22,130 nt of DNA from a virus, in IMG/VR virus record IMGVR_UViG_3300038655_000116, positions 1 through 22,130 of that record, one strand, 5' to 3'. Shown here piece after piece: positions 644 to 13,727 of the stretch. The notes under the pieces are model-generated. The model saw nothing but the letters and a program-made list of their open reading frames with translations. It was not told where the DNA came from and ran no database searches. The translations under genes and the position numbers were made by a program. Every line of letters starts with the position of its first letter. The stretch's first letter is position 1.

Positions 644-1959
644 GCAGCTTCACACCATCGCCCCCGCAGGCTGCGGCCATTCGCGAGATCAGGGACTGGT
701 TCGAGACCCGGACCGACGCGCAACAGGTATTCCGGCTGTTTGGGTATGCCGGGAGTGGGAAAAGCACGGTGCTGAAGTTCGCACTCGACGAGCTTGGCCT
801 CTCCCCCCATCGCAGCGCGAAGGACGGCCCCTGCGTGCCGGGCGTGGTCACCGCCACTTTCACCGGCAAGGCGGCGCTCGTGCTGACGCGCAAGGGCACG
901 CCCGCGCGCACCATCCACAGCCTGATCTATTCGGTGAGCGAGGCGACCGAGGAAGAGGTCGAGGCGGCGGGCAAGCGCCTCCGCGAGGCCGAGGACGCCG
1001 CGCGGCACATGAGCGGGTTCGACCGCACCACGGCCGAGGCCGCGGTCGAGGCGATGCGCCAGGCGCTTTCCGCAATGAAGCACCCGCGGTTTGCGCTGAA
1101 CCCGCAGAGCGACGCGGCCGATGCAAGGCTGATCGTGCTCGACGAGGTCTTGATGGTGGGCGAGGACATGGCGCGCGATCTGATGAGCTTCGGCAAGCCC
1201 ATCCTCGTGCTCGGCGATCCCGGCCAGCTGCCCCCCATCAAGGGCGACGGCGCTTTTACCCGCGACGAGCCGGATGTGATGCTGACCGAGATCCACCGCC
1301 AGGCGGCCGAGAGCGCCATCATCCGCCTCGCCACCATGGCGCGGACCGGCGAGCCCATCGGGTTTGGCGGCTATGACGCCCATGTGGCAAAGATGCGAAA
1401 GGGCGACGTCACGCCCGAACAGGCCCTCCACGGCGGCCAACTCATCTGCGGAATGAACGCGACGCGGCTGCAGATCAACAACGCGATGCGCGCTGCAGCG
1501 GGGCTCGGGAACACATGGCTGCCCACCGGCGCGGCCGAGAAGATCGTCTGCCTGAAGAACCAGAACGACCTCGGGCTCATCAACGGGATGTTCGTGACGC
1601 TGGAGGATATTGTTGACGAGGGCAGCCTATACTTCTCGGCCGTCGTGACGGACGAGGACGGGCAGCGCGTCGGGCCGGTCGATCGCGACGGCCGCCCGGG
1701 TCGCCTGCGCCTCTACAAGGGGCATTTCGAGGACCATGTCGCCTTCGACCGAACCCGCCATGACCGCGACTGGAAAGACAAGAGGCGTCTGACCGAAGCG
1801 ACCTTCGGCTGGGCCATCACGGCGCACAAGGCGCAGGGCTCGCAATGGGAGAACGTGATCGTCTGGGACGACGGGCTGGGCCGCACCGAGCTCGACCGCC
1901 GCCGCTGGCTCTACACCGCCATTACACGCGCGGAGCGCGGCCTCGTCCTGCTGGCGTGA
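640..1959 (+). CDS. ATP-dependent RecD-like DNA helicase (SF1)
   Basis: A 439-residue cytoplasmic helicase expected to unwind DNA during phage replication or recombination. Visible motifs are a Walker A loop GYAGSGKST at residues 35-43 (Lys41), a Walker B-like LIVLDEV around 164-170, a GDPGQLPPI motif at 192-200, and C-terminal UvrD/RecD-type motifs TAHKAQGSQ near 394-402 and YTAITRAE near 425-432. This order fits the AAA_30 plus UvrD_C_2 architecture of RecD2-like phage helicases. The region around residues 100-150 is charged and probably helical. I chose the ATG at 640 because AAGGA lies 9 nt upstream and the start overlaps the preceding stop; a longer frame from 427 is only overlap with the upstream gene. 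The primase gene follows after 8 nt. Confidence 0.9.
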   Translation: MSSFTPSPPQAAAIREIRDWFETRTDAQQVFRLFGYAGSGKSTVLKFALDELGLSPHRSAKDGPCVPGVVTATFTGKAALVLTRKGTPARTIHSLIYSVSEATEEEVEAAGKRLREAEDAARHMSGFDRTTAEAAVEAMRQALSAMKHPRFALNPQSDAADARLIVLDEVLMVGEDMARDLMSFGKPILVLGDPGQLPPIKGDGAFTRDEPDVMLTEIHRQAAESAIIRLATMARTGEPIGFGGYDAHVAKMRKGDVTPEQALHGGQLICGMNATRLQINNAMRAAAGLGNTWLPTGAAEKIVCLKNQNDLGLINGMFVTLEDIVDEGSLYFSAVVTDEDGQRVGPVDRDGRPGRLRLYKGHFEDHVAFDRTRHDRDWKDKRRLTEATFGWAITAHKAQGSQWENVIVWDDGLGRTELDRRRWLYTAITRAERGLVLLA

Positions 1960-1967
1960 GCCCTGCC

Positions 1968-4541
1968 ATGATCGACCTGAACGATGTCTGGGCGCCGCCC
2001 GCCCGCCACGACCTGACCGCGATCAAGGCCCGGCTGGTGGACTCCGCCCGCGACTGGCTGCCGCCGCTCTTTCCCGAGGCGCGGCTGACGCATGATCGCC
2101 GGGCGCTGCGCTGCGCCGATCTCTCCGGACGCCCGCCGCGCGGAGAAGGGTCGTGCATCATTCACCTCGATGGCCCCTATGCAGGGTGGGGCTTCGATTT
2201 TGCCACAGGTGAGCGCGCCGGCCCGGTCGATCTGATCTATCACGGCACAGGCCTGACGGAGGGGCGGCTGTTCGACGAGGCGGCGCGGCTTGCGCATCTG
2301 GAGCATGACGTCGCTCGGCAGCCCCGGCCGACATCTGCGGCGTGTCCCGACCACACTCTGGAAATCCGGCGCATCCTGGACGCGTGCATGCCCCTCGCGG
2401 GAAGCCCAGCCGAAACCTATCTGCAGGCGCGCGGGCTCGGGGATCCGGGCGCACCGGATCTGCTCTATCACCCGGACCTGACCGATTTCGAAGCCCGGCG
2501 TGGCAGGCCCGGCATCGTGGCGATCCCGCGCCTCGTCAGTGGCGAGGCGGTCGGCGGCATTCACCGGACCTACCTGCTCGATGACGGCAGCGCCAAGGCG
2601 CCTGCTGGCAAGAAGATGCTGGGCAAGATCGCCGAGGCGGCCGTGCGGCTGTTCCCACTGCCCGAGGACGGCCATCTCGGCGTCGCGGAAGGCATCGAGA
2701 CGGCGCTCGCGGCCCATGCGCTCTTCGGTATACCGGTCTGGGCGGCGCTGTCGGCCGACGGGCTGGCCCGGTTCAGTTGGCCCGAGGGCGTGAGCCATGT
2801 CACGATCTACGCCGATGCCGGCGATACCGGGCGCCAGGCCGCCGCGACCCTGTCGGATCGATTGAACCTTGCGGACATCCCGAACCGGATCGTGGCCCCG
2901 CTGCATGGTGACGATTTCAACGACGACCTTCTCAATGGCGCAACGTCGGCTGAATATGAACGACCGGCAGTGGCCGAGCCCGGATCCGAATATTCCGAGA
3001 CCGCGACATCCCTCGTGGCCTCCGCCGACGACCCTGACGCGCTGCTCGCAGCGGCCGAGACGCTGACCAACCCGCCCGAGCTCGAGGCGCTCTCCACGCT
3101 GCTGGGGCGCATCGCACTGGCCCGGCTCGACCCTTTGCCGGAGCGCCAGATCCTCGACCGGATCAAATCCACCACGGGCATCGCCGTCTCGATCCTCGGA
3201 AAGCAGCTGACCGAACTTCGGAAGCGGGTGACCGCGACCGGCGATCCGAACGCCCGGATCCCCCAGCCGGTCTGGTTCGGCCGATTGCGCCTCGATCTGT
3301 CCGGCACGCCCGAGCGCAACGAGGCCAATGTCATGATCGCGCTCAACTCCGATCCGGCTTACGCAGGCGCTTTGGCCTTCGACGAGTTCGCGCAGGAGAT
3401 CGTGGTGCGCCAGCCTCTGCCATGGGACAGGGTCGAGACGACCCTTCCACGCGTGTGGGACGATGCCGACGATATCCGCACTGCCGAATGGCTCCAGATC
3501 CGCGGGATCAACGTGGCGCCGGTCGTCGTCAGCCGCGCCGTTGGCGCCGTCGCCCGCGAGTTGCGCATCCACCCCGTCCGTGACTGGCTCGACACCCTGA
3601 CATGGGACGGCACGCCCCGGATCGAGACCTGGACCAGCACCTATCTCGGCGCTGAGCCTACCGCGTTCCACCACACCATCGGTGCGCTCTGGCTGATCTC
3701 GGCCGTCGCCCGTATCTACCGCCCCGGCGTCAAGGCCGACCACATGCTGATCCTCGAGGGGCCGCAGGGCGCGCGCAAATCCACCGCGCTCAAGGTCTTG
3801 TCCGGCGAGGCCTGGTTCACCGACGAACTGCCCGAGCTCGGCTCGAAGGACGCCGCCATCCACATGCAAGGCATCTGGATCGTGGAGATCGCCGAACTCG
3901 ACGCCATCGGCCGCGCCGAGGTCTCGCGCATCAAGGCGTTCCTGACGCGGACCACCGACCGTTTCCGCCCGCCCTATGGTCGCTACACCGTCGAGGTCCC
4001 GCGCCAGTGCGTCTTCGCCGGCACCGTAAACCCCGACACCTACCTGCGCGACGAAACCGGCAATCGCCGCTTCTGGCCGCTCCGCTGCGGGACCATCGAC
4101 ATCGCGGCGCTCGACCGCGACCGCGACCAGCTCTGGGCCGAAGCCGTCCACCGCTTCCGCGACGGCGCGATCTGGTGGATCGAGGACCCAGCGCTGCTGG
4201 CCGAAGCCCGCGCAGCGCAGGACAGCCGCTACCAGTCCGACGCCTGGGACGACCTGATCGAACACTGGCTGACGCACGAGATCCGCACCGTGTCGGACGG
4301 CTTCCCCGACTACGGCAACTCCCGCACCGAGAGCGTGCCGCGTCCGGAGCCGTTGAGGGATGTGGCGGTCGGCGAGATCCTAGAGGAGGCGATCGGGCTC
4401 GAACCCGCGCGCTGGACCCGCGGCGACCAGATGCGCGTCTCGGCCTACCTCAAGGCGAACGGCTGGGAGCGGTACCGACGGCGCGACGAGGGCGGGCGCG
4501 AGGCGCCGCGGGAGTGGCGGTATCGTAGATGTGTTGGGTAG
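1968..4541 (+). CDS. Toprim-VirE primase/helicase replication protein
   Basis: An 857-residue replication protein that appears to join a primase-like N-terminal half to a VirE/VapE-type P-loop helicase half. The Toprim part shows EGIETA at residues 241-246 and YADAGDTG at about 281-288. The acidic pair is spaced D-x-x-D rather than the more common D-x-D, so the metal site may be unusual. The C-terminal half has Walker A GPQGARKST at 598-606, followed by WIVEIAELD and TVNPDTYLRDETGNRRFWP, the hallmark order of the VirE family. Start ATG 1968 lies 8 nt after the helicase stop with only a weak GTGAG ribosome site, suggesting coupled translation. The stop codon TAG (4539-4541) is the first three bases of the direct repeat flanking the insertion sequence, so the protein is intact. 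It probably primes and unwinds phage DNA. Confidence 0.88.
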   Translation: MIDLNDVWAPPARHDLTAIKARLVDSARDWLPPLFPEARLTHDRRALRCADLSGRPPRGEGSCIIHLDGPYAGWGFDFATGERAGPVDLIYHGTGLTEGRLFDEAARLAHLEHDVARQPRPTSAACPDHTLEIRRILDACMPLAGSPAETYLQARGLGDPGAPDLLYHPDLTDFEARRGRPGIVAIPRLVSGEAVGGIHRTYLLDDGSAKAPAGKKMLGKIAEAAVRLFPLPEDGHLGVAEGIETALAAHALFGIPVWAALSADGLARFSWPEGVSHVTIYADAGDTGRQAAATLSDRLNLADIPNRIVAPLHGDDFNDDLLNGATSAEYERPAVAEPGSEYSETATSLVASADDPDALLAAAETLTNPPELEALSTLLGRIALARLDPLPERQILDRIKSTTGIAVSILGKQLTELRKRVTATGDPNARIPQPVWFGRLRLDLSGTPERNEANVMIALNSDPAYAGALAFDEFAQEIVVRQPLPWDRVETTLPRVWDDADDIRTAEWLQIRGINVAPVVVSRAVGAVARELRIHPVRDWLDTLTWDGTPRIETWTSTYLGAEPTAFHHTIGALWLISAVARIYRPGVKADHMLILEGPQGARKSTALKVLSGEAWFTDELPELGSKDAAIHMQGIWIVEIAELDAIGRAEVSRIKAFLTRTTDRFRPPYGRYTVEVPRQCVFAGTVNPDTYLRDETGNRRFWPLRCGTIDIAALDRDRDQLWAEAVHRFRDGAIWWIEDPALLAEARAAQDSRYQSDAWDDLIEHWLTHEIRTVSDGFPDYGNSRTESVPRPEPLRDVAVGEILEEAIGLEPARWTRGDQMRVSAYLKANGWERYRRRDEGGREAPREWRYRRCVG

Positions 4542-4545
4542 ACTC
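4539..4545. repeat. Left copy of 7-bp IS target duplication (TAGACTC)
   Basis: TAGACTC here recurs at 6127-6133 directly outside the other end of the insertion sequence. Identity continues for two more bases (GT), but those overlap the left inverted repeat. The first three bases are the primase stop codon. A 7- to 9-bp duplication is longer than the 2-4 bp usual for many IS5-family members, although some subgroups make 8-9 bp. Confidence 0.75.
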
Positions 4546-4561
4546 GTCGCCCGTGAATTCC
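4546..4561. repeat. IS left terminal inverted repeat
   Basis: GTCGCCCGTGAATTCC pairs imperfectly with the right end of the element at 6110-6126. It lies 4 bases outside the transposase stop codon (4566-4568, minus strand). Confidence 0.7.
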
Positions 4562-4565
4562 TCGA

Positions 4566-5933
4566 TTATGCGGCTACGCGGCGATCAGCTGTTGCGCTGT
4601 ACGGCGTCGTCGGATTGCCGACGTTGTAGAGACGGCAGAGGATCCAGACGAAAAGCAACCTGATCCAGGCTGCCAGGAGCCGCATGTTGTGCCCTGCGGC
4701 GGTCAGGATTGCGTTGATCGCATCGCCTTCGGGTCCGGTGAGGTGGTTCCGTTCGAGGTGTCCGTCTTCCTTCAAATGGCCAATGACCGGCTCAATGGCA
4801 CTTCGTCGTCGCATTTCGCGCCGGATGGTGGGCGAGGTGATGCCGCGTGTGTGGGAGATGGTGATATCGAGGTTGTCACGCTCGATCCTGTGGCCGCGGT
4901 AGCCGCGGTCGACATAGGCGCGGGCAACAGATGTTCCGGTCAGGCGGGCCACCTGATCGATCTGTCCGGCGAGGCTGTGACCATCATAGGGATTGCCGGG
5001 CAGCGCCATGGCCCCGAGCACGAACTGGCCGCCTTTGCAGCGCTCGTTGGTCGTGGCGATCGAGGTCTTGCAGCCGAATTCGTAGCGGGTGCGGGCCTTG
5101 CCTTTCCCGATGCATTCGACCTCCGGCGCGTGGAACGCGTATAGTTTGTCCTTATCGTCTGGCTGCTGCCCAAGGATGCGCTCGGCGCGCTCCAGCACCG
5201 TGGCGAATGCCACCTCCAGCGCCGGGTCCCCGGCGATCTTGCGGCGGATGTCCCGGGTCAATCGTCCCAACCAGGTGCGCATGCTTCTCAACCAGCGCAG
5301 GCCCTGCTTGTGGCCCCGGCCATGCAGCAGCCGGGCAACCTCGCGCCGGGCCCGGGTTGTCAGCCGCAGGAAGGATTGGCGCAGCTTGATCCCGTGGCGC
5401 TTCGCCAGACGGTTCAGCCATTCGATCGACCGCAGGATCAGATGGCTGTCGGTCGGATGTGCCACCGCCTTGGTCTGCACTGTGGTGTCCACCGTGATCC
5501 GTTCCAACTGCCGCTCACTCACAGCCTCGGTTTTTACAGCCACGGCAATGGTTTCGGCCAGCAGCGCCTCCAGATCCTCGGCCCCGATCCGTTGGCGCCA
5601 GCGGGTCATCGAGGAGCGGTCGATCGGCAGCCGGTGCTGGAAAAACGTCTCGCCGCAGAAGGCCTGAAAGTATGGGTTCTCCAGCCAGGTCGCGCAGGTC
5701 TCCTCATCCGACAGACCCTTCATGTGCTTGAGCAAATGGAGCCCTGTCATCAGACGTGTCGGCGACCCACGCCGGCCTTTCCGATCATGGTAATGCGTCC
5801 CGAACGCGTCATCGAACCGGGTCCAGTCGATCAGGCCAGCCAGCTTCAGCAGTTCGTGCCTCGGATCGAGAATGCTCTCCAGAGAACTCCTGAACAGATC
5901 GTCAGGTCGGGCTTCGGGCAGTTTCGGACGCAT
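4566..5933 (-). CDS. IS5-family-like DDE transposase
   Basis: A 455-residue transposase that would cut and join the ends of its own element. It begins MRPKLPE and carries the N-terminal InsH/DUF772-type region (around residues 15-110, including GLHLLKH and NPYFQAFCGE) followed by a DDE catalytic core. The likely catalytic residues are D149 in VDTTVQ, D342 in VDRGYRG and E381 in IEPVIGHLKED. A basic region at about 170-235 separates the first and second Asp. The start at 5933 is preferred over the upstream ATG at 6026 because the family starts at MRPK and the extra 31 residues look random. The ribosome site (CGAG) is weak. No frameshift or stop is seen, so the enzyme should be functional. Confidence 0.92.
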   Translation of the reverse strand: MRPKLPEARPDDLFRSSLESILDPRHELLKLAGLIDWTRFDDAFGTHYHDRKGRRGSPTRLMTGLHLLKHMKGLSDEETCATWLENPYFQAFCGETFFQHRLPIDRSSMTRWRQRIGAEDLEALLAETIAVAVKTEAVSERQLERITVDTTVQTKAVAHPTDSHLILRSIEWLNRLAKRHGIKLRQSFLRLTTRARREVARLLHGRGHKQGLRWLRSMRTWLGRLTRDIRRKIAGDPALEVAFATVLERAERILGQQPDDKDKLYAFHAPEVECIGKGKARTRYEFGCKTSIATTNERCKGGQFVLGAMALPGNPYDGHSLAGQIDQVARLTGTSVARAYVDRGYRGHRIERDNLDITISHTRGITSPTIRREMRRRSAIEPVIGHLKEDGHLERNHLTGPEGDAINAILTAAGHNMRLLAAWIRLLFVWILCRLYNVGNPTTPYSATADRRVAA

Positions 5934-6018
5934 CGCAATCTCGCACGTAGGTGGGGCCTGATCGCAGTGGAGCACGACCGGTTGGCGATGGGAATCCCCT
6001 ACGCGCAAGCGCGTCAGA

Positions 6019-6061
6019 AATCGCAAGGTTTTCGTGGGTATCGACCAGAAACCTTGCGATT
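6019..6061. repeat. Perfect 13-bp inverted repeat upstream of transposase
   Basis: Arms AATCGCAAGGTTT (6019-6031) and AAACCTTGCGATT (6049-6061) enclose 17 bases. The repeat lies inside the insertion sequence, in the leader of the transposase gene. It could form a hairpin in a read-through transcript and limit transposase expression, as leader hairpins do in some other IS elements; that role is inferred. There is no T-tract, so a simple intrinsic terminator is unlikely. AT-rich DNA just upstream (6066-6105) is the probable transposase promoter region; GATAAT at 6073-6068 on the minus strand is the best -10 candidate, but the -35-like CTGACA is 21 bases away. Confidence 0.6.
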
Positions 6062-6109
6062 CCGGATATTATCAAAACTAGAATAAGAATACATTGTCAG
6101 ATGCTTACG

Positions 6110-6126
6110 GGAAAATCACAGGCGAC
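6110..6126. repeat. IS right terminal inverted repeat
   Basis: GGAAAATCACAGGCGAC is the inverted partner of the left end at 4546-4561. The best match is the outer GTCGCC-pyrimidine-GTGA. Confidence 0.7.
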
Positions 6127-6133
6127 TAGACTC
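6127..6133. repeat. Right copy of 7-bp IS target duplication (TAGACTC)
   Basis: It matches 4539-4545 exactly and sits directly next to the right inverted repeat. Confidence 0.75.
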
Positions 6134-6344
6134 GTGATGAGGCGGCAAACGGCGAAAACCGGACCTTGGTCTCGACATCGCTGTATCCCGCTGAGTCTGG
6201 TGGAATGCAGCACTCGCTGCGGACGCCTACCCTTAGGTGGATTGGAGCTGCCAACGTCCTTCTGGGCAAAAGGAGGCAGTCGTCGGATTACAGGCCGGAA
6301 AGTCGATGCAGCCTATCTCGTAGCGCGATCAATCGATGTCAGAA
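6134..6344. other. Non-coding gap between IS and CBASS operon
   Basis: About 210 bases with no convincing gene on either strand. It should hold the 3' end of the CBASS transcript, but I see no strong hairpin with a T-tract. Before the IS arrived this DNA directly followed the primase stop codon. Confidence 0.5.
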
Positions 6345-7244
6345 TTACCGATGACCGCTGTTCCAGTAGCGCCGCACAGCCGCGAGAAACGTCTGATAGT
6401 TCTGCATATTCCAGCAGACATGTGAGCTCTCTCGGATTAACCAGTAGAGATCATTCGCGCAGGACAGTTCGTTTGCATTGCATCGCTCCAGCCAGTACAA
6501 ATAGTCCTCAAAGCTCTGCTGGTATCCTGCAACGAAGTTCTGGTTCGGGACACTCCACAGCATTCCCTCGAGAAAGTATGACGGCGCGACGCCCTTCTTG
6601 AGGAAGCCCTCGTCGACCATTGCGTTGCGCATGTTCTTCAGCACCCGCACGTTCGGCTTAAAACGGTTACTGGTAGCTTGATGCTTAGATGTGCAGTTCT
6701 GCTTATGCTGCCTCGGGAAGTTGACAATCCGGTCCCCGTCAGCAGTGATGAACGATATTCCTATATGATGACGGTTATCCGAAGGCGACCGATACGAGGT
6801 GTACCGATGGTGCTCGATGCAAGCCAAAACGTCTGCGGTGCGTCGATTTCCCTCTCCCGGAACAGCAATTGCTTTTCGACCCGGGGTCACACCGCCGCCG
6901 AAATTCGCCTTCAGCCAAGCGACTACTTCAGATTTGAACTCCGTTAAGCCGTATTTTGCGGGCGAGCGGTTCGCTTCATACGCCTCCTTCTCCGCTGGAT
7001 CGAGACCAGATATGTCGCTGTTGAAGACGTCGGTTAGACAGATCACCACATCCACATCGCTTTCGGAGCCGCGGACGTTCGTGTCGTTCCCATAGGAGCC
7101 CTGCAGGAATACGTCGATCCCGCGTCCTGCATACGGAGCATCAGGATGCTCGAGGACTGACCGTATCGTCTGGTAGGTCGCTGCGGATTGCTGCTGGGAT
7201 CCCACATGGGACCAAGTTTCAAGTTGGTTCTCTGAAATTGCCAT
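6345..7244 (-). CDS. CBASS CD-NTase (cyclic oligonucleotide synthase)
   Basis: A 299-residue nucleotidyltransferase of the cGAS/DncV-like (SMODS) superfamily. It is expected to sense phage infection and make a cyclic nucleotide that switches on the neighbouring phospholipase. The active site is visible as GS at residues 49-50, the acidic pair D63 and D65 in SDVDVV, and a third Asp at D138 in TADVLAC. The later FPRQH...KH...T...FKPNVRVLKNMRN stretch (about 177-207) is also typical of these enzymes. The ATG at 7244 is chosen because GAGGTG lies 5 nt upstream; the in-frame TTG at 7256 is less likely. It begins 8 nt after the CapV-like stop, in the same operon. Clade and product cannot be assigned by eye. 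Its DNA is clearly less GC-rich than the phage genes (32 of 60 bases G or C at 6361-6420, against 46 of 60 at 15001-15060), a sign of separate acquisition. Confidence 0.9.
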   Translation of the reverse strand: MAISENQLETWSHVGSQQQSAATYQTIRSVLEHPDAPYAGRGIDVFLQGSYGNDTNVRGSESDVDVVICLTDVFNSDISGLDPAEKEAYEANRSPAKYGLTEFKSEVVAWLKANFGGGVTPGRKAIAVPGEGNRRTADVLACIEHHRYTSYRSPSDNRHHIGISFITADGDRIVNFPRQHKQNCTSKHQATSNRFKPNVRVLKNMRNAMVDEGFLKKGVAPSYFLEGMLWSVPNQNFVAGYQQSFEDYLYWLERCNANELSCANDLYWLIRESSHVCWNMQNYQTFLAAVRRYWNSGHR

Positions 7245-7252
7245 TTCACACC

Positions 7253-8176
7253 TCAACTAAACAAGACGTCATGAATTTTGTTCTCGTAGCGGCCGAAGGA
7301 CTCGCTGCCCTGTTGACGCAGCAAGTTCAACTTATTCAAGTCATGCTCAAATAGGTCAGTCGCCATTTCCGGTTTGTTGAAATGGTCGCTAACCCGAGCC
7401 GTCGGCACGGTCGCAAACAAGAGCTGGCGCAGTTGATCCATGGACGCCGTATTCACTTCGAGCGTCTTCTGCAGAAGCTGCACCAGCCAGAAGCGGCGTT
7501 TCATGCGTTCGAAGAATGGGTAGCGCGGCTCCGGGTACTGCCCGCAACCTATGCTCAGTACGCGGCACTCAGTCGGTGCGAACCCAAGCGGCCCGGTGGC
7601 ATCAGCCAACGCGTAGAGCGCAGGATTGTTCGCCACATAGCCGCCGTCGAAGAGCTCGACATCGTTACCCGTGCTCGTTTTCACGATCTTGCGCTCGAAG
7701 AACGGGTACGCCGAACAAGACGCTTCCACCGCGTCGGCGAGCGTGCAGCCGAAGCCCGGAACGAATGTAGCGCGCCTGCCGTGTGCCTGGGTCTGCATGC
7801 TCTTGAAGATCATTGGCGTCTCAAGTTGCCACTTCGTAGTCACAACACCAAGGCCAGTGCGAACCGTGTCGAAACCATCCTCTCCGAAGACCTTCTCTCC
7901 TACGGCCCGAAGACGCCGTGTGCGCTCGCGCGGTTTCTTGGCTTGCATGATATGCGGGACGTGCTCCCGATAGAGGCAATGGATTTCTTCGACCGTCTTT
8001 CCGGTAGCCAACAGCGTGGCGATGATCGAGCCGGTACTTGTCCCGAAGATCAAATCGAAGCTCTCGTGAATGGGCTGAGGGAGCACTGCTTCGACCTCGG
8101 CCAGCACTCCGAGGGAATAGAAGCCTTTCGCTCCCCCACCGTCCAAGCTCAAGATCCTGCAAACGCCTTCTTGCAT
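7253..8176 (-). CDS. capV: CapV-like patatin phospholipase, CBASS effector
   Basis: A 307-residue patatin-like phospholipase, the killing arm of a CBASS system. When bound to the cyclic nucleotide made by its partner, such enzymes degrade membrane phospholipids and kill the infected cell before phage release. The sequence shows the oxyanion loop DGGGAKG at residues 12-18, the nucleophile elbow GTSTGS with Ser47, and the catalytic Asp177 in DGGY, so the Ser-Asp dyad is intact. No membrane segment or signal peptide is seen. The ATG at 8176 is chosen because TTGGAG stands 10 nt upstream and the family begins just before RILSLDGGG; an open frame back to 8530 runs through non-coding repeats. It is the first gene of the two-gene operon. 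No ubiquitin-like Cap2/Cap3 or HORMA/TRIP13 genes are present, so this is a minimal type I layout. Confidence 0.9.
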   Translation of the reverse strand: MQEGVCRILSLDGGGAKGFYSLGVLAEVEAVLPQPIHESFDLIFGTSTGSIIATLLATGKTVEEIHCLYREHVPHIMQAKKPRERTRRLRAVGEKVFGEDGFDTVRTGLGVVTTKWQLETPMIFKSMQTQAHGRRATFVPGFGCTLADAVEASCSAYPFFERKIVKTSTGNDVELFDGGYVANNPALYALADATGPLGFAPTECRVLSIGCGQYPEPRYPFFERMKRRFWLVQLLQKTLEVNTASMDQLRQLLFATVPTARVSDHFNKPEMATDLFEHDLNKLNLLRQQGSESFGRYENKIHDVLFS

Positions 8177-8373
8177 CGGAAGCACGCTCCAAGTGATACC
8201 CAGATATAGTGGATTGTGCGCAGGTCGTATGCAAGAGTTAGCGGTGCATCGTCGAATGGCTGTTCTGTGATGCTGTGCCAGGCGAGTTCGTTTTCGCAAC
8301 CAACGGCCGCTCCGCGACCTTCGTCCGCATCCTCTGTTTATCTGAAGCTGCTTGGCAATATTCATGGCGTTCT

Positions 8374-8671
8374 GTCCCAACCTCCCCGGTGGTCCCAACC
8401 CTGTCCCAACCTCCCGAGGGGGTTGGGGACACGAAAAGCCGTTCAAAAACAACGGTGTCCCCAACCTCACCCCGTGGTCCCAACCTTTTGCTACACATTC
8501 ATGTGGGAGAACGGAAAAGGTCGGGAACATGCTTTTCTATACGAAAAGAGAAGGACCCCCGTTGGGGACACCGAGGTTGGGACCACATCTGGGCAAGGCA
8601 TTGCCATGGAACGATAAAAGCCTGTCCCAACCCCCTGAGAGGGTTGGGACAGCGCGCCATGAGGTTGGGAC
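8374..8671. repeat. Cluster of 11 GTCCCAACC-type short repeats
   Basis: Eight exact copies of GTCCCAACC or its complement start at 8374, 8392, 8403, 8477 (plus) and 8624 (plus), and at 8575, 8642, 8663 (minus). Three variants with one extra G/C lie at 8421-8430, 8457-8466 and 8561-8569. Two pairs form inverted repeats: 8403-8411 with 8421-8430, and 8624-8632 with 8642-8650, the second with perfect 11-bp arms (TGTCCCAACCC). Copies left of about 8490 are mostly in plus orientation and those to the right mostly minus. A degenerate copy (GGTTGGTCC) is at 8704-8712. Spacing is irregular, so this is not a CRISPR or simple tandem array. It looks like a binding-site cluster for a replication initiator or a regulator, but no cognate protein can be named. 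Confidence 0.85.
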
Positions 8672-8727
8672 ATGGGCCGGGCGACATCCGCTCGCAGGCT
8701 AGGGGTTGGTCCAGGTGGCGATTTTTC

Positions 8728-8756
8728 TTGTTCGGCGGAATCCGGCGCACTAGCCT
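8728..8756 (+). promoter_or_regulatory. Weak candidate promoter for the RuvC-like gene
   Basis: TTGTTC at 8728-8733 and TAGCCT at 8751-8756 are 17 bases apart, 47 bases before the start codon. The -10 match is poor, so this is only a candidate. Confidence 0.25.
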
Positions 8757-8803
8757 TGTCTCGACCAAAGCCGAAGGCCCACTCGATCCCGTGAGCCTTC
8801 ACC

Positions 8804-9325
8804 ATGTACACACAACACCAACGCGTTGCCGATACGCGCCCCGAACCCCAGCACGGCGCAAACACGATCCTCGCCCTCGACCTCGGCACGACCACCGGCT
8901 GGGCGCTGCGCGCGGCGGACGGCCTGATCACCAGCGGGACGGTCTCGCTCAAGCCCAGCCGCTACGACGGCGGCGGCATGCGATATCTGCGGTTCACCAA
9001 CTGGCTGACCGAACTGGACCGGCTGTCAGGTCCGATCGCCACGATCTGGTTCGAAGAAGTTCGGCGGCACGCAGGCACCGATGCGAGCCACGTCTATGGG
9101 GGTCTGATGGCCACGCTGACCGCGTGGGCCGAGCTGCGCGGCATCCCCTATGCAGGCGTCCCGGTCGGCACGATCAAGCGCCACGCCACCGGCAAGGGCA
9201 ACGCGCCCAAGGCGGCGATGATCGCCGCGGTCCGGGCACGCGGGTTCTCGCCCGCCGATGACAACGAGGCCGATGCCATCGCCATCCTGTTCTGGGCCAT
9301 CGAGACGCAGGGAGGTGTGGCATGA
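8804..9325 (+). CDS. RuvC-like Holliday junction resolvase
   Basis: A 173-residue nuclease of the RNase H-like RuvC fold, likely to resolve branched phage DNA made during replication or recombination before packaging. The first strand LALDLGTTTGWA carries D26. WFEEVRRH supplies the second acidic residue (E84 or E85). The loop GKGNAPK at about 130-136 and the end helix ADDNEADAIAIL with D152/D153 and D157 complete the acidic cluster. The order and length fit phage crossover-junction endonucleases. The first 20 residues look unstructured, and a start further in is possible, since the ribosome site before 8804 is weak (GTGAG). Its stop overlaps the next ATG (ATGA), so it heads a coupled run of small phage genes. 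Confidence 0.85.
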   Translation: MYTQHQRVADTRPEPQHGANTILALDLGTTTGWALRAADGLITSGTVSLKPSRYDGGGMRYLRFTNWLTELDRLSGPIATIWFEEVRRHAGTDASHVYGGLMATLTAWAELRGIPYAGVPVGTIKRHATGKGNAPKAAMIAAVRARGFSPADDNEADAIAILFWAIETQGGVA

Positions 9326-12943: not shown

Positions 12944-13137
12944 TCTTCGGAGGCGACTTCCGAGACGTATGCACCGCCCGCATTCCACGAACCTTCATCG
13001 AGGGTCCAGACGGCGTTTTCCATGTCGGCCAGAACCTTGAAGGCGGCGACTTGCGCCGCCTCAGGGGATAGTGCTTCGACGGACACGAAGGTGCTTTCGG
13101 TGACGTCGCGGGTGATCTTGACCCTGAAGCGCGGCAT
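12940..13137 (-). CDS. Small hypothetical protein, unknown function
   Basis: A 65-residue acidic protein beginning MPRFRVKITRDVTEST. It has a beta-strand-like start (FRVKITRDV, TFVSVEA) and a short helix (PEAAQVAAFKVLADM), an arrangement seen in many small phage proteins, but no family is recognised. The start codon overlaps the stop of the upstream DUF3489 gene by one base, and AGGA lies 9 nt before it, which supports a real coupled gene. It is the last gene of the minus-strand group. Confidence 0.7.
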   Translation of the reverse strand: MPRFRVKITRDVTESTFVSVEALSPEAAQVAAFKVLADMENAVWTLDEGSWNAGGAYVSEVASEE

Positions 13138-13727
13138 CAGTCCGCGTCCTGAATGCGATAGCAGCGCCCACGACCCTCGACCTTCTCCGAGGTGATGGTC
13201 AGGCCGAGCTTCTTTTTCAGTGCGCCGGACATGGCGCCCCTAGCGGTGTGAGCCTGCCAGTCGAGTGCCGCCACGATCTCGTCGATGGTGGCTCCGCCCT
13301 CGGCGCGGAGCATCTCGATCAGCTTCGCCTGCTTCGTGCCCGCGCGCGGTGTGCGCGCCTTGGCCGCGGGGTCGCCCTCGGCGGGAGCGTCCTTCGGGGC
13401 CTCCGCGCTCGGCGCCGCGTCGGCGCCCGTGTTCGCTCTGTCGCCGCCTTCCGGCTCGATCCCGATGGCGGCGAGGCCCGCATCTGCGATGTGCAGGAGG
13501 ATGGCGCGGCCGTCCGTGTCGTTGCGCCAGATGCGGTTGAGGGCGGCATCGGCCTTGGTCCGGCTGTCGGTCGTGGTCTCGGCGATCAGCCCGCGGGAGA
13601 GGAGCGCGCCGACCACCTTGGCGGCCGCGCCGCCGCGGAGCGAGCCGGGAAGCGGCAGGACGTTGCGGTCCTCGCGCTGCGCGGCGGCGCTGAGGATCAC
13701 GAGCTGGGTATCGGAAAGCTTGGTCAT
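13137..13727 (-). CDS. DUF3489-domain protein with winged-helix-like C-terminus
   Basis: A 196-residue protein that I assign to DUF3489. Residues 1-85 look like a winged-helix-type domain (TKLSDTQLVILSAAAQREDR at the start, later RAILLHIADAGLAAIGIEP). An Ala/Pro-rich linker follows at about 93-128. Residues about 130-196 are a second DNA-binding-like domain with KQAKLIEMLRAEGGATIDEI and ALDWQAHTARGAMSGALKKKLG. The second part is the conserved DUF3489 region and resembles a replication or regulatory winged helix. GGAGA stands 7 nt before the ATG. It could regulate this small operon or other phage genes, but no target is known. Confidence 0.82.
   Translation of the reverse strand: MTKLSDTQLVILSAAAQREDRNVLPLPGSLRGGAAAKVVGALLSRGLIAETTTDSRTKADAALNRIWRNDTDGRAILLHIADAGLAAIGIEPEGGDRANTGADAAPSAEAPKDAPAEGDPAAKARTPRAGTKQAKLIEMLRAEGGATIDEIVAALDWQAHTARGAMSGALKKKLGLTITSEKVEGRGRCYRIQDAD

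Follow-up and report, generated by a model that had tools for sequence, protein, structure and literature searches.

A cluster of short repeated words in a viral DNA is very probably the replication origin of a phage, and comparison across related genomes points to VapE, a primase-helicase of the same phage, as the protein that would read these iterons through its C-terminal winged helix. The stretch of DNA analysed, referred to here as the window, is 22,130 nucleotides long, and the CBASS genes and insertion sequence (IS) found between vapE and the array would represent cargo. The assignment to an origin of the SaPI/PICI rep-ori kind, carried here by temperate phages, is well supported by sequence comparison. 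The array, its conserved two-arm design, its constant association with vapE-type genes, and its residue-level covariation with VapE are established by computation, and from these we infer VapE-iteron binding and origin activity.

The repeat array and the genes around it

The word GTCCCAACC was found by word search in eight exact copies and three near-copies within 298 bp of the window. The exact copies lie at 8374-8382, 8392-8400, 8403-8411, 8477-8485 and 8624-8632 on the plus strand, and at 8575-8583, 8642-8650 and 8663-8671 on the minus strand. The near-copies carry an extra C and are located at 8421-8430 (minus; one base longer, GGTTGGGGAC / GTCCCCAACC), 8457-8466 (plus; one base longer, GTCCCCAACC) and 8561-8569 (minus; GTTGGGGAC / GTCCCCAAC, the last base of the 10-mer being different), while degenerate copies occur near 8519 and 8704, both minus. 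Read along the array, the strand order is + + + - + + before the centre and - - + - - after it, with plus words mainly to the left and minus words mainly to the right of a point near 8522. Two arms, 8374-8485 and 8575-8671, flank a central interval between inward-facing iterons (8486-8574), which is 52% AT against 37-40% in the arms and is the proposed melting region. One inverted repeat pairs 8622-8636 with 8638-8652 (93% complementary), and a second pairs 8401-8427 with 8626-8652. A sequence-only reading of this DNA had described eight exact and three one-base-longer words within 300 bases, the bias in orientation, two inverted-repeat pairs, and an irregular spacing incompatible with CRISPR or a tandem repeat, and all of this was borne out by the computed word positions. 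CRISPR and tandem repeats are made of regular identical units, while the spacing here is irregular and both orientations occur. In 200 first-order Markov resamplings, GTCCCAACC was expected 0.185 times per window and reached at most one copy per 300 bp.

The candidate origin as a unit is an element of about 310 bp (8362-8682, no strand assigned), which recurs in many prophage contigs, about 82-92% identical and with the words at unchanged positions. The minimum of the cumulative GC skew of the window falls in 8001-9000, the interval that contains the array, and in 28 of 41 loci the skew is higher to the right of the array than to its left, although the difference is small (p 0.005). In six host genomes with a related prophage, the word is elsewhere about as frequent as its reversed control, and its only cluster is the one in the prophage; the outcome that the earlier reading had named as counting against it, a word frequent at non-phage sites of the host, is thus not observed.

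On the left of the array, the replication module begins with a Dda-like SF1 helicase gene (427-1959, plus), followed by vapE (1845-4541, plus), which encodes a DUF7146-Toprim primase, a VapE helicase and a C-terminal winged helix (PF13362; PF05272, E 5e-82) and is the proposed initiator. Homologue alignments place its true start probably at a conserved ATG at 1968 (MIDLNDVW). Between vapE and the array, 3.8 kb of IS and CBASS cargo hold a transposase gene (DUF772/DDE; 4566-6026, minus), a CBASS oligonucleotide cyclase gene (6345-7256, minus), and the gene of a patatin-type phospholipase effector of CBASS (7253-8176, minus). The patatin reading frame is listed from 8530, and its family match starts only at residue 120; the overlap with the array is an upstream extension only, with the likely start at ATG 8176, so the array is intergenic. 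On the far side stands a RuvC-like resolvase gene (8804-9325, plus), used below as a linkage control. The flanking genes agree with the earlier reading of divergent CBASS and RuvC-like units: the two CBASS genes, for cyclase and patatin effector, are on the minus strand, and the RuvC-like gene is on the plus strand. The window also encodes a GpA terminase, a lambda-type portal, a Clp-type protease and a head-tail attachment protein; the absence of an own structural and packaging gene set, by which a PICI satellite is recognised, does not apply to it. A DUF3489 gene (13137-13727, minus) occupies a constant place between methyltransferase/DUF7220 genes and the terminase in most relatives. Another contig, L127 (IMGVR_UViG_3300031223_000581), has an array identical to that of the window and neighbours, CBASS and transposase included, at about 100% identity.

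Arrays beside vapE-type genes in other phages

Loci were collected through RuvC relatives, word-pattern matches, CapV relatives and then VapE relatives, in genomes and virus contigs. The search took the most repeated 7-mer downstream of vapE, and at least six copies of one word were counted as an array. The array follows vapE in more than 100 alphaproteobacterial prophages, the hosts of VapE relatives being Rhodobacterales, Rhodospirillales and some Hyphomicrobiales. Arrays of 6-12 words were present at 118 distinct VapE loci, where shuffled DNA gave at most 3-5 copies, and about 20 VapE loci have no array of at least six words in their available sequence, some of these contigs ending there. 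When the genes of the window are mapped onto the loci, the array commonly stands between vapE and ruvC, mostly without CBASS. It starts tens of bp past vapE, often 57-70 bp from the stop codon, or 1-4.6 kb away with cargo between. A putative origin immediately 3' of the initiator gene is seen in the relatives (from about 57 bp downstream), and in the window cargo intervenes. Several loci encode only a distant VapE homologue (31-36% identity); there the array stands close to the 3' end of that gene, and no RuvC homologue was detected. The comparison of related prophages, which the earlier reading had suggested as a check, thus finds the cluster staying with the replication gene vapE and not with CBASS.

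Outside this clade, in named phages whose VapE-type genes are no more than about 42% identical, arrays built from other words fill the intergenic gap after the gene. Marinobacter phage PS3 has eight copies of GGGGTGA after its vapE-type gene, Corynebacterium phage StAB seven word copies, Staphylococcus phage QT1 six and Acidovorax phage ACF1 four; the three copies in Streptococcus phage Javan405 are weak and not beyond chance. In Pseudomonas phage Haddon and its relatives, the array lies about 380 bp downstream of the gene.

Copies agree within an array, and the word differs between phages. The types include GTCCCAACC, TGTCCCACTT/CT, TGTCACCAACC, TGTCACCACCT, GTCCAACCT, GTTCCCAACC/ACC, TGCCCAACCT, TGGTCCCACTT and others. 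The architecture is shared: the longest interval free of words (mean about 88 bp) has a plus word before it and a minus word after it in 102 of 106 arrays, and this central gap is AT-richer than its flanks (Wilcoxon p 4e-19; 106 arrays). When eight arrays of different words are aligned, stretches of spacer are shared and the words are altered at matching places, which suggests that words were rewritten in place rather than whole arrays exchanged.

Several further observations concern the same region. Cargo occupies the interval from vapE to the array (4542-8176 in the window; the same slot in L174-L332), where different prophages have IetAS, AbiEi/AbiEii, PD-Lambda-2, RmrA, SIR2-like and CBASS genes. 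Prophages of Rhodospirillales type have a second array about 1.5-1.8 kb beyond the vapE array, with 5-8 words GGTTTCCA or GGTTACCA; the former was seen in L369 (11491-11649), L246 (10603-10760), L238 (10893-11048), L243 and L370, and the latter in L367 (9522-9690). Upstream of RuvC in L043, L060 and L037 stand AGGCTCAC (11 copies), AGGTCCCC (12) and ACATTCCC (10), located between distant VapE relatives and RuvC and suggestive of further iteron types. RuvC relatives without a detected VapE (L013, L047, L064, L015, L031) have upstream words of their own (TCTTTCAA, CAGATTTC, AATCTGG, CAGTTTCG), and these repeats are perhaps origins of other replication modules.

Covariation of the word with the VapE winged helix

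The C-terminal domain in question was modelled with AlphaFold2 (residues 780-898). The model contains a helix-turn-helix and a two-strand wing, with helices at 842-850 and 859-871 and strands at 874-880 and 889-895 (model numbering H63-71, H80-92, E95-101, E110-116), at a mean pLDDT of 79.7 and about 68-93 in these elements. On this model, residue 859 is predicted to start the recognition helix and residue 878 to lie in the wing. Covariation and structure prediction together mark the winged helix (residues ~842-898, 4368-4538, plus) as the proposed iteron reader.

Corrected for overall divergence, word class correlates with VapE residues 781-898 (partial r 0.33-0.43) and nowhere else in VapE. 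Across one set of 106 loci, the partial r is 0.48 for the C-terminal domain, 0.07 for the upstream helicase and -0.03 for RuvC. The rules for single residues were first noticed by reading C-termini sorted by word class. At 878 (codon 4476-4478, plus), on the first wing strand and R in the window, Q accompanies TCACC words in 22/22 and R or K accompanies other words (TCCC) in 95/96, which makes 117/118 in the sample. At 859 (codon 4419-4421, plus; R in the window), R accompanies CCAAC in 69/73 and K accompanies CCAC in 42/44. A weaker rule applies in the same helix at 866 (codon 4440-4442, plus; S in the window), where S, A or T goes with CCAAC and G with CCAC. In classical contacts of this type, Arg is expected to read G and Gln to read A. 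A scan of all 898 columns without preselection gave the same residues. For CCAAC/CCAC, 859 ranks first (normalised mutual information 0.40), followed by S866 (0.21), and the best column outside 790-898 reaches 0.15; for TCACC/TCCC, 878 ranks first (0.60) and the next column has 0.19. Phylogenetically independent pairs, taken from a tree of VapE residues 41-760, were concordant for 878 in 10 of 11 and for 859 in 17 of 21, with none discordant for either.

The rules were fixed before new loci, from the same broad clade, were fetched in two further scans. The raw script scores on the new C-termini were 41/45 for 878, 41/45 for 859 and 37/45 for 866. The score for 878 becomes 43/45 once parsing errors in L339 and L341 are corrected; these corrections came after the result was seen, and the raw scores are therefore the unbiased ones. 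The remaining 878 misses are L369 and L370, to which the script assigned the second, more distant GGTTTCCA array; the predicted GTCACCAA adjoins vapE in seven copies in L369 and two in L370. The in-sample locus L238 is similar, with the predicted word beside vapE and the second array further off chosen by the script. L370 and L367 have no clear array of the predicted word, with two copies of its core each. Exceptions to the 859 and/or 866 rule are L209, L281, L247, L252 and L358; L367 and L358 remain exceptions for 859, and D-type words (GTCCAACC) carry G866, against the 866 rule.

The Pseudomonas phages all have a helix of the K-and-G type and single-A words, as the rule predicts, with the exception that L507 also has three CCCAA copies. 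Their arrays are mixtures of GTCCCAC and GTCCTAC, and Arg or Lys two residues past the wing Trp goes with GTCCCAC or GTCCTAC, respectively; this holds in 12/12 and 32/32 of those called, with two independent pairs only, both concordant. We incline, by a little, to read these correspondences as a near-modular code, in which single winged-helix residues would set single iteron features and phages would repeatedly have rewritten all of some ten iterons in place to match. With the same slight preference, the terms of the code would be Gln/Arg at 878 for A/C, Lys/Arg at 859 for one/two A, and the Pseudomonas post-Trp Arg/Lys for C/T.

The earlier reading had left the choice between an origin and an operator for the CBASS and RuvC-like genes, and only the first of these is supported. 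The origin with iteron-like sites is upheld by an array that stays with vapE where CBASS or a detected RuvC is missing and by a word that covaries with the VapE C-terminus. A many-copy operator, where a repressor or activator would bind to govern both the operon led by the RuvC gene and the CBASS cargo divergent from it, is improbable. The array does lie in a divergent intergenic region upstream of both genes, winged-helix regulators do bind such sites, and VapE binding could affect nearby transcription as a side effect. But CBASS is absent from most array loci, arrays follow vapE where no RuvC homologue is detected, the word follows the C-terminal domain of VapE while RuvC divergence does not track it, and the single-residue peaks fall in VapE.

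Equally improbable is an account by linkage, in which one recombining block would carry both the array and the vapE 3' end and the two would match with no contact between protein and DNA. At many loci only 57-70 bp separate the array from the vapE stop codon, which would favour such an account. It would, however, raise all C-terminal columns, and 859 and 878 stand far above their neighbours; no such correlation is seen for RuvC on the opposite flank; in A-type phages the rule still holds across 2-4.6 kb of intervening cargo; and independent pairs show evolution at the same word positions.

Short inverted sites are clustered in parS-like sites and recombination enhancers as well. A partition (centromere-like), recombination-enhancer or packaging site bound by another phage protein is nevertheless highly improbable: no parA or parB is among the gene families found around the array, the terminase genes are about 6 kb away, and the word tracks VapE. 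A mobile repeat (REP- or MITE-like) placed here by chance would explain the inverted repeats and the high identity of copies between phages, but can practically be dismissed in view of one cluster per host genome in six genomes, a fixed place after vapE, and words that differ between phages while the spacers stay partly homologous.

The readings rejected in the course of the analysis were a CBASS operator, CapV relatives being few and most arrays having no adjacent CBASS; a RuvC-linked element, most RuvC relatives lacking this word and those with a close VapE having a different word at the same place; a host-dispersed repeat, by the word counts in the six host genomes; and covariation by linkage only, by the RuvC and upstream-helicase controls.

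Known replication systems and the proposed origin

VapE belongs with the SaPI Rep helicases, as its residues 477-790 match PDB 7pds, 'Similar to D. nodosus vapE' (phmmer, E 1.2e-48), an entry that the fold library lists as PriRep1 with dsDNA. The first Foldseek match of the C-terminal model is SaPI5 PriRep1 with dsDNA, a weak match below usual significance (E 0.08, TMq 0.46), and 7pds is second by VIA-align among many tied winged helices. The fold matches are winged-helix proteins, all with modest scores, and many unrelated ones score alike; the C-terminal profile gave chance matches only against PDB sequences.

The closest likeness is to the pri-rep-ori of SaPI/PICI elements (SaPIbov1, SaPI5 PriRep1, EcCICFT073), which have an initiator helicase of the same family and an origin 3' of its gene. 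A passage of PMC7581432, citing Ubeda 2007, states that the C-terminal domain of SaPI Rep recognises the origin. SaPI/PICI are satellites, whereas the present elements are temperate phages of full size that have genes for terminase, portal and tail; here, defence cargo can separate initiator and origin, and word variety and residue-level covariation extend over more than 150 natural variants. Cch2 of SCCmec, a helicase able to load itself, uses its C-terminal domain to bind direct repeats that closely follow its gene (PMC7581432), and covariation suggests binding of this type for VapE. The SCCmec system differs in having three iterons only in the putative origin, no two-arm array and a separate primase-polymerase.

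The alpha protein of satellite phage P4 combines primase, helicase and a C-terminal origin-binding winged helix in one protein, and the P4 ori/crr contains multiple short iterons and an AT-rich stretch. The three-part plan, short iterons and AT-rich stretch are shared with the VapE system, while the primase and helicase subfamilies are different, and P4 alpha is absent among the matches listed in the PDB sequence searches and both fold lists. The origins of lambda O and of iteron plasmid Rep proteins also place iterons beside an AT-rich region (a principle listed in PMC4980987). Unlike VapE, these initiators are not helicases and must recruit DnaB, and their iterons are direct repeats instead of two inward-facing arms. 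A literature search on VapE with iterons or origins returned nothing relevant, the SaPI work of Ubeda (2007, 2012) lying outside its scope.

Under the origin reading, VapE, with primase, helicase and winged helix in one protein, would bind the GTCCCAACC iterons through the winged helix and form helicase rings on both inward-facing arms. The rings would melt the AT-richer centre and unwind the DNA outward, and VapE would prime its synthesis. CBASS and the IS would have been inserted as cargo between initiator gene and origin.

The SaPI/PICI rep-ori design is already known; what is new is how widely it occurs in temperate phages, together with the covariation of initiator and iteron at the level of residues. 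The design would thereby be extended to full-size temperate phages. In vast numbers of prophages, the annotation of a vapE-type gene goes no further than 'virulence-associated' or 'primase/helicase', and a likely origin can now be placed beside it. The stretch between initiator and origin is also shown to be a place where anti-phage defence genes are carried. The natural initiator-iteron pairs with switched specificity, more than 150 in number, make a joint change of specificity in an initiator and its many-site origin testable. If the code is true, origin specificity would be predictable from sequence, and related prophages could split into replication-compatibility groups.
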